Source: Anaerolineales bacterium (GTDB taxonomy: Bacteria; Chloroflexota; Anaerolineae; Anaerolineales; JABWBV01). From it: a stretch of DNA of 36,686 bases. Positions 13,042-29,812 of the stretch are shown here, piece by piece. A program made the position numbers and the translations under genes. The stretch covers positions 1 to 36,686 of the forward strand of contig JABWBV010000057.1 in NCBI GenBank assembly GCA_013359445.1, written 5' to 3'. Positions within the stretch are counted from its first letter, which is position 1. Every line of letters begins with the position of its first letter. The notes beneath the pieces are model-generated. The model was given only the letters and a program-made list of their open reading frames with translations, was not told where the DNA came from and did not search any database.

Positions 13042-13066
13042 GGGGAATAGTGAATGGTCAATTGTG

Positions 13067-13129
13067 AATTGTGAATGATCAATTGTAAATGAAGCGTCAT
13101 TAAGAATTGACAATTGATCATTCACAATT
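13067..13129. repeat. Inverted repeat with 20-bp perfect arms upstream of the deacylase
   Basis: 13067-13086 is exactly complementary to 13110-13129, with a 23-bp loop. The arms are built from iterated AATTGTGAATGATCAATTG-type words, and a further degenerate copy lies at 13053-13070. It begins 25 bp upstream of the deacylase ATG and creates a spurious N-terminal extension of that frame. Confidence 0.9.
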
Positions 13130-13187
13130 GGGAATTATTTGGGGAGTATACAGGGGAGGGAGGGGAGGTGTAAAGGGGGGAATCCTC

Positions 13188-13217
13188 TTGACACTTCTAC
13201 CCCCCCCCGTGTAGAAT
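13188..13217 (+). promoter_or_regulatory. Sigma70-like promoter with C9 tract in the spacer
   Basis: TTGACA (13188-13193), an 18-bp spacer and TAGAAT (13212-13217). The spacer contains nine consecutive C (13200-13208). One C fewer would give the optimal 17-bp spacing. It points to the lipoprotein gene at 13491, leaving a leader of about 265 nt in which no gene is recognised. Confidence 0.65.
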
Positions 13218-13490
13218 GAAAACGCCTGAGCAGGTGGCTGGTGAACCCCCAGTGCGTTCCTTTTTTCTACAATCTAATCCATCCTCAAGGGCTTGTTTCG
13301 GTTTCCGTTGGAAATTGTCAAGCAATTGTCAACTGGATGTCAAGTGCGACCTTGTAAAAGTGTGTAGGATGAGAGCGTATTTCAAAGGAAAGTTTCCTAT
13401 CTCGCTATCCCAAAGGAGGCATATATGAGCTGATGTAAGTTTGGTTCTCTTGTCTTTAGCGTTCAAGAATTTTTCACGAAGGAGTTCAAA

Positions 13491-14027
13491 ATGTTTCTCA
13501 AAATCCTTTTTTCTTTTCGCCGCCAGCATTGGATGTTTGGTGGGTTTGGGTTGATCTTGTGCCTGTTGGGTGCCTGTAACACAACCCAAGGGCCTCTCAA
13601 AATTACGGATATATCCGTGAACCCAGATCCGGTTATTGGAAAAACTGCGACCCTGCATGTCGACATCATGTCTAGTTACGATGAACCCAGTACAACGCTC
13701 CTGATCGGCTTACCCCCTGGCGTGAAGTTGATGAAAGGCGACCTGACCTGGGAAGGCTCGCTAACTGCCAACCAACCCCAAAGCCACGAAATTGCGATTT
13801 GTGTGCTTTATGAAGGGGATTGGCCAGTGTCGATGACCGCAAGTTCATTAGGGGTAGAAGGAGAAAGGCCAGGGAATTTTGCCATAGAAATCCTCCACAT
13901 TATCACCACGACTGACTCAGTCCGGGTTGTACTCGGCAAAGATTACCGTATTGTCCAACCGCCAGGAGGAATGGAAGCGTTTCCAACGCCCTTGCCAGAA
14001 ACCCCTCCCACAGATATATGTCAATAA
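13491..14027 (+). CDS. Hypothetical surface lipoprotein
   Basis: 178 residues. AAGGAG lies 6 nt before the ATG. The N-terminus has basic residues, a hydrophobic helix and a lipobox LLGAC (Cys at about residue 29). The rest is predicted beta-rich: ITDISVNPDPVIGKTATLHVDI resembles the first strands of CARDB/DUF11-like Ig folds (split: ITDISVNPDPV, then GKTATLHVDI), followed by LLIGLPPGVKL and a Pro/Thr-rich end. No catalytic motif. Inference: an exported, lipid-anchored Ig-like protein facing outwards. It is monocistronic and converges with the winged-helix gene 35 bp downstream. Its likely promoter has a C9 tract, so expression could vary by slippage. Confidence 0.75.
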   Translation: MFLKILFSFRRQHWMFGGFGLILCLLGACNTTQGPLKITDISVNPDPVIGKTATLHVDIMSSYDEPSTTLLIGLPPGVKLMKGDLTWEGSLTANQPQSHEIAICVLYEGDWPVSMTASSLGVEGERPGNFAIEILHIITTTDSVRVVLGKDYRIVQPPGGMEAFPTPLPETPPTDICQ

Positions 14028-28948: not shown

Positions 28949-29812
28949 TCAAGAATTCTGCTCCAACGGCCTGAATCCCTCCCCCAACGCCTCATGCGCC
29001 TGCCCGACGACCATAAACGCCTTCGGATCGGCTTCGTGAACAATCGTTTTCAACTGCACAATTTCCGGGCGGGAAACCACACAGTACAACACCGAACGCG
29101 CCTCGCCCGTGTACCCCCCAAAGGCGGGGACAATCGTCACGCCGCGTCCAAGCACGTCCATAATCTGACGGGCGACGATGTCCGGGGCGGAGGTCACAAT
29201 CAACCCCGTGCGGACCTGCCCCTGCCCTTCAAACGTCGTCTCCGCCACAATGCCGCTCACGTACAGGGTGATGACGGCGTACAGGGCCTCTTCCCACCCG
29301 AACACAAATCCGGCGGCGAGAATGACCGCCGTATCCACCATCAAATAGGATTGGGACATGGAAATCCCCCGCCAGCGGTTGAGAATCCGCGCGAGGATGT
29401 CGCTCCCCCCGCTCGTGCCCTGTCCCCGGTACACCAACCCGTACCCAATCCCGGCGACCACTGCCCCGTACAGGGAGTTCAATACCAGATCGGGGGTGAT
29501 CCCGTCCGTGGGTAGGAAAAATACGGCGGCATCGACGAAAATGGAGTACGAGACAATCGCCACCGCCGTCCGCACCGCGAACCGTCGCCCGCCCAATTGC
29601 CGCCACCCCAGCCCAAAGAGGGGGACATTCCCGATGAAGACCATCAACCCAATCGGCCACCCGGTGTAAAAGTTGATCAGTTGGGCAATGCCGCCCCCCC
29701 CCCCACTCGCCAGATTCGCCGGAATGAAAAACAGGCGGATGGCAATGGCCTGGATGAGGGTTCCCAGGATGATGAAGAAATAGTCTTTGAAAGAAGATTT
29801 TAATAATTTCAT
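28949..29812 (-). CDS. YitT-family membrane protein (DUF161 with DUF2179 domain)
   Basis: 287 residues. Five to six transmembrane helices lie in residues 8-200, with the family motifs ANLASGGGGGIAQLI (after the first helix), GTSGGSDILARIL and VDTAVILAAGFVFGWE. A C-terminal DUF2179 domain (about 205-287) has LIVTSAPDIVARQIMDVLGRGVT-like residues (LIVTSAPDIVA, IMDVLGRGVT) and VLYCVVSRPEI. Function of the family is not settled; transport roles have been proposed. The ATG follows the pyrD stop by a single base, so it is translationally coupled and last in the epimerase-pyrD-yitT operon. A run of 11 G encodes five Gly near residue 38; any slip there would abolish the protein. Confidence 0.88.
   Translation of the reverse strand: MKLLKSSFKDYFFIILGTLIQAIAIRLFFIPANLASGGGGGIAQLINFYTGWPIGLMVFIGNVPLFGLGWRQLGGRRFAVRTAVAIVSYSIFVDAAVFFLPTDGITPDLVLNSLYGAVVAGIGYGLVYRGQGTSGGSDILARILNRWRGISMSQSYLMVDTAVILAAGFVFGWEEALYAVITLYVSGIVAETTFEGQGQVRTGLIVTSAPDIVARQIMDVLGRGVTIVPAFGGYTGEARSVLYCVVSRPEIVQLKTIVHEADPKAFMVVGQAHEALGEGFRPLEQNS

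Follow-up and report, generated by a model that had tools for sequence, protein, structure and literature searches.

A C9 tract in the spacer of a predicted sigma-70-like promoter upstream of a lipoprotein gene in an Anaerolineales bacterium

Introduction

Most known cases of promoter phase variation through slippage of a homopolymer come from host-adapted bacteria, both pathogens and commensals. In a 36,686-nt stretch of DNA from an Anaerolineales bacterium, referred to here as the window, nine consecutive C residues lie between the −35 and −10 hexamers of a predicted promoter upstream of a lipoprotein gene. We asked whether this arrangement represents a promoter whose strength would vary with tract length, as an initial annotation had proposed, or an ordinary promoter with a C-rich spacer. 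A search of the literature on phase variation and Chloroflexi found no report of slippage-tuned promoters of this kind.

Results

Promoter elements and spacing

Direct reading of the sequence bore out the arrangement described in the initial annotation, a C9 tract between TTGACA and TAGAAT with 18-bp spacing (Table 1). The −35 hexamer is perfect and the −10 hexamer matches at five of six positions, and with these 11 of 12 consensus matches the site took the top rank in the promoter scan. In a looser scan that allowed spacings of 15–19, no other + strand sequence between 13130 and 13480 reached 8 of 12 matches. A pattern search for TTGACA and TANNNT with a run of at least seven C residues somewhere between them returned 13188–13217 as the sole site in the host genome (7.04 Mb in 822 contigs, 95% complete). 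As in porA-type promoters, both hexamers are near consensus and the homopolymer lies strictly in between. A gene for an RpoD-like housekeeping sigma factor is present in the window. On its sequence, 13188–13217 is predicted to be a real sigma-70-like (housekeeping-sigma) promoter with a slippage-prone spacer.

Table 1. Features of the promoter region and the downstream gene, with positions in the window
Feature	Position	Strand	Basis
−35 element TTGACA	13188..13193	+	sequence reading, promoter scan
Spacer CTTCTACCCCCCCCCGTG, 18 nt, holding the C tract	13194..13211	+	sequence reading
C9 homopolymer tract	13200..13208	+	sequence reading
−10 element TAGAAT	13212..13217	+	sequence reading, promoter scan
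Inverted repeat TTCTAC-N10-GTAGAA over spacer and −10, possible operator	13195..13216	.	
Divergent promoter-like site TTTACA-18-TATACT	13145..13174	−	promoter scan
Terminator-like hairpin, then T6, between promoter and gene	13237..13266	+	
Shine-Dalgarno AAAGGAGG, then two-codon mini-ORF ATG AGC TGA, in the leader	13413..13431	+	sequence reading
Lipoprotein gene, 178 aa, RBS AAGGAG, lipobox LLGAC (Cys29)	13491..14027	+	ORF, alignment, model

Genome-wide figures rest on pattern searches plus a 1.24-Mb sample of the class. TTGACA-N15-20-TANNNT occurs at 221 sites in the host genome compared to 118 for the reversed pattern. The spacing at the 28 TTGACA/TANAAT sites of this genome is 17 in 15, 16 in 12 and 18 in 1, which agrees with the earlier proposal that loss of one C would give the preferred spacing. 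The 18-nt spacer is thus one off the preferred 17, such that a change in the tract would cross the optimum, as in porA-type promoters. The spacers of 28 strong host-genome promoters contain, on the non-template strand, more C than G (0.31 vs 0.17); C runs of at least four are present in 4 of the 28 and G runs in none.

A pattern search identified 126 C or G runs of at least nine in the host genome, a few of which, e.g. the terminal runs of contigs C52 and C58, resemble sequencing artefacts. By rough estimate from these runs and the counts of TTGACA/TANNNT sites, 0.02–0.04 tract-bearing spacers would be expected by chance in the host genome at the genome-average tract density, rising to about 0.1 with the non-coding density of tracts of at least eight. 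A tract-bearing spacer picked post hoc in one genome is uncommon yet within coincidence, and is not decisive. A second tract in the window, C11 at 29694–29704 (G11 on the coding strand), is situated inside a YitT-like membrane protein gene at 28949–29812(−). It encodes the Gly-rich segment NLASGGGGGIAQL, and slippage by a single base would cause a frameshift close to the protein start; from its sequence, this may be a coding contingency tract.

The lipoprotein gene and its leader

The gene product has a predicted signal helix at residues 3–27 followed by a lipobox whose Cys29 is invariant in 7 of 7 aligned sequences, the combination expected of a bacterial lipoprotein, and its identification as an exported lipoprotein is thereby upheld. 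It had been called a surface lipoprotein; the lipoprotein part of this name stands, while surface exposure is presumed from the lipobox only. Searches of Pfam and NCBIfam gave no match for the 178-aa protein, and relatives were found in 11 other genomes among 396 of the class, plus one more in the same order. The AlphaFold model is a single beta-sandwich domain with a mean pLDDT of 80 and values exceeding 90 for the greater part of its core, and its PDB matches are generic Ig-like.

The −10 element is separated from the ATG by 273 nt. The initial annotation had presented the promoter as that of the lipoprotein gene; the promoter appears real, but the gap to the gene exceeds what had been implied. 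We infer that the promoter drives the lipoprotein gene across this distance. The leader contains a terminator-like hairpin and a mini-ORF (Table 1), the latter preceded by a strong Shine-Dalgarno sequence.

Other elements around the promoter

The divergent promoter-like site has a C-rich, non-homopolymeric spacer, and the −35 elements of the divergent pair are 13 bp apart. A long hairpin at 13143–13216 (−38.8 kcal/mol as RNA) was considered and rejected; it is upstream of both predicted starts and hence should not be transcribed from them, and as DNA its z is only −2.8. The hairpin reads as two divergent C-rich-spacer promoters (21 of 30 matches). Low E-value miRNA matches from Rfam at 13046–13216 were likewise rejected, as hairpin or low-complexity matches. 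Within 13145–13187 the sequence is also rich in G (GGGGAGGGAGGGGAGG, GGGGGG), and this part could base-pair with the C tract or fold into a G-quadruplex. Further upstream, 13049–13129 is an imperfect palindromic intergenic repeat of the AATTGTCAATTGTGAATGATC type, and the stretch including it has 28 matches in the host genome and 23 in the family's only other genome.

Tract conservation

Unlike what is expected of porA-type promoters, the tract was not kept with the gene: no homopolymer of seven or more C or G residues was found near the lipoprotein gene at the seven relatives' loci examined. These relatives are distant (25–42% identity), and retention of the tract is therefore no strict requirement. 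A contig collection searched for the promoter with a variable tract yielded no second strain, and the same collection yielded no lipoprotein homologue. The family's only other genome (G001) is without the lipoprotein gene and without the neighbouring AlkZ-like gene.

Tract-bearing spacers in the class

The 396 genomes of the host's class were searched with the pattern TTGACA-N1-10-C8-N0-10-TANAAT and its G8 version. Tracts of C8 or longer were found in the spacers of 16 sites, 14 of them independent when alaS is counted once, and tracts of G8 or longer in 26. The reversed-pattern control gave 0 sites each for C8 and G8. As this control ignores the enrichment of true promoters, a search for C8 located 0–30 nt upstream of the −35 element of the same promoter pattern was added, and it gave 16 sites over 31 offsets. 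Per position, C8+ tracts were about 3-fold denser in the spacer than upstream of −35 (p=0.003, counting 9 offsets as available to the tract within a 17-nt spacer); when only offsets 0–10 were used the ratio was 2.4 (p=0.04). Thus, at the class level C tracts in spacers are over-represented relative to neutral expectation, as in porA-type promoters. The upstream background control covers C tracts only, and the G8+ figure rests on the reversed control. The 1.24-Mb class sample contained no tract-bearing promoter beyond three that had been included on purpose.

Spacer length also differed between promoter groups. A spacer of 17 was present in 6 of 40 promoters with the tract in the spacer compared to 9 of 16 with the tract outside it (p=0.006); for C tracts alone the values were 4 of 14 and 9 of 16, which was not significant (p=0.16). 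Tract-bearing spacers ranged from 14 to 21 for C and from 13 to 26, with a mode of 19, for G, and 24 of 39 sampled class promoters were at 17. The wider scatter of the tract promoters corresponds to what slippage predicts.

The 26 G promoters (L124–L128, L135–L154) carry G8–G19 in the spacer. Four are from genus g104 (G240 twice, G262 and G301), and genome G153 has three G-tract spacers plus one C8 spacer. Two contigs of genome G158 share 132 identical downstream bp of promoter and gene-start sequence and differ by one G in tract length, G10 vs G9; their upstream DNA differs, so that the pair could reflect either separate loci or a junction created in assembly. These 26 G-spacer promoters are better candidates for phase variation than the window site. 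The earlier view of the lipoprotein as a typical phase-variable product was not borne out at this level, as exported products were not significantly enriched behind tract promoters (19 of 36, compared to 9 of 22 for control promoters).

Tract spacers at housekeeping genes

C8–C9 spacers also precede alaS (17 nt), rplU (17) and probable nuoC (16), the gene names being given by eye from translations. The alaS promoter TTGACATCCCCCCCCAATTAGAYTAGAAT (L114, L115, L116), from another family of the class, resembles the window site in having a C tract in the spacer and TAGAAT as its −10 element. It differs in that the three genomes, which belong to two genera of a single family, all have C8 and a 17-nt spacer and that the gene is essential; this promoter behaves as a fixed one. 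These examples indicate that a C run in the spacer alone does not mean switching.

Discussion

The poly-C tracts of the Bordetella fim promoters lie upstream of the −10 element, as does the tract in the window. Those promoters are BvgA-dependent and without a consensus −35 element, whereas both hexamers of the window site are near consensus. The closest known design is that of Neisseria meningitidis porA, in which poly-G is located between −35 and −10 and the optimum spacing is 17 (PMC7864442, describing van der Ende 1995). The two sites have in common a homopolymer strictly between the hexamers, an optimum of 17 and an exported product. They differ in that the porA tract is poly-G with its length variation and effect measured, whereas the window site carries C9 with a predicted effect, and in that the window site has a 273-nt leader and no infection biology. 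N. meningitidis opc likewise has poly-C in the promoter of an exported protein. One source describes this tract as covering −35 (PMC7864442, describing Sarkari 1994), from which the window site differs by a perfect TTGACA outside the tract, and another groups opc with porA, with poly-C between −35 and −10 (PMC2791445). The initial annotation's claim of exactly the same design as in known phase-variable promoters was therefore loose; porA fits it, but opc as described in one source does not.

One reading, to which we give somewhat less than an even chance, is that 13188–13217 is a true promoter with a slippage-prone C9 spacer and graded, variable transcription, i.e. a porA-like candidate, unproven for this site. 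The assembled allele, with its spacer of 18, is one above the host genome's preferred 17. A C gained or lost during replication would shift the spacer, with 17 giving the stronger promoter and lengths of 19 or more a weaker one, and transcription of the lipoprotein gene would thereby vary in a graded and reversible way, as it does for meningococcal porA. The tract at 13200–13208 would be unstable in vivo, and its length would presumably affect transcription. Now backed by the class-level excess, this phase-variation reading is plausible from the sequence. Counting against it are the tract-free loci of the relatives, the constant C8 at alaS and the C8–C9 spacers at other housekeeping genes, and the long leader with its terminator-like hairpin. 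About equally likely is that the promoter is a fixed, ordinary one whose spacer is C-rich by composition, with C9 as the end of a range and a length that does not serve switching. This explanation accounts for the excess of C over G in the 28 strong-promoter spacers, the C-rich spacer of the adjoining divergent site and the C8–C9 spacers of 16–17 bp at alaS, rplU and probably nuoC, and the chance number of 0.02–0.1 in the host genome is also in its favor. It accounts less well for the roughly 3-fold higher density of C8+ in spacers than just upstream across the class and for a spacing of 18, which is unusual for the host genome.

Two further explanations concern other features of the region. 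Rather than lipoprotein mRNA, the promoter could produce a short RNA (about 45 nt) with its 3′ end at the hairpin and T6 around 13266, or a leader subject to attenuation, in which case the C tract would modulate the small RNA or a decision on antitermination. The position of the hairpin and T6, about 15–45 nt past the start predicted near 13223–13225, the 273-nt gap to the ATG and the Shine-Dalgarno sequence with its mini-ORF are consistent with this explanation. However, the hairpin at 13237–13266 was no more stable than shuffles, an Rfam search gave no family at the gathering threshold, and the lipoprotein gene would be left without another + strand promoter of at least 8/12 in 13130–13480; we consider it improbable. 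It is less probable still that the key feature is the inverted repeat or the divergent promoter pair, acting as a repressor operator with the tract as mere filler at its centre. Although 198 of 200 shuffles fold less well than the 33-nt strand and the divergent −35 elements are closely spaced, TTCTAC-N10-GTAGAA occurs only once in the host genome, below the 10 per strand of the reversed control and within chance, and hence no regulon is visible.

Beyond the window site, promoters tuned by slippage of C or G tracts in their spacers may be in use throughout the class, for the most part with G8–19 in spacers of 13–26 bp and with the window site included; we regard this broader reading, in which such promoters would precede envelope, secreted and regulatory genes, as possible but rather doubtful. 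The same kind of promoter precedes alaS and rplU, a warning that a C run in the spacer is insufficient for calling a promoter phase-variable. If the class-wide reading is true, it would place phase variation of porA-type promoters in a lineage that is not pathogenic. The excess of tracts in spacers would then extend bet-hedging by slippage to the uncultured environmental bacteria of the class, and slippage at the class level could be tested with existing metagenome reads, without cultivation.
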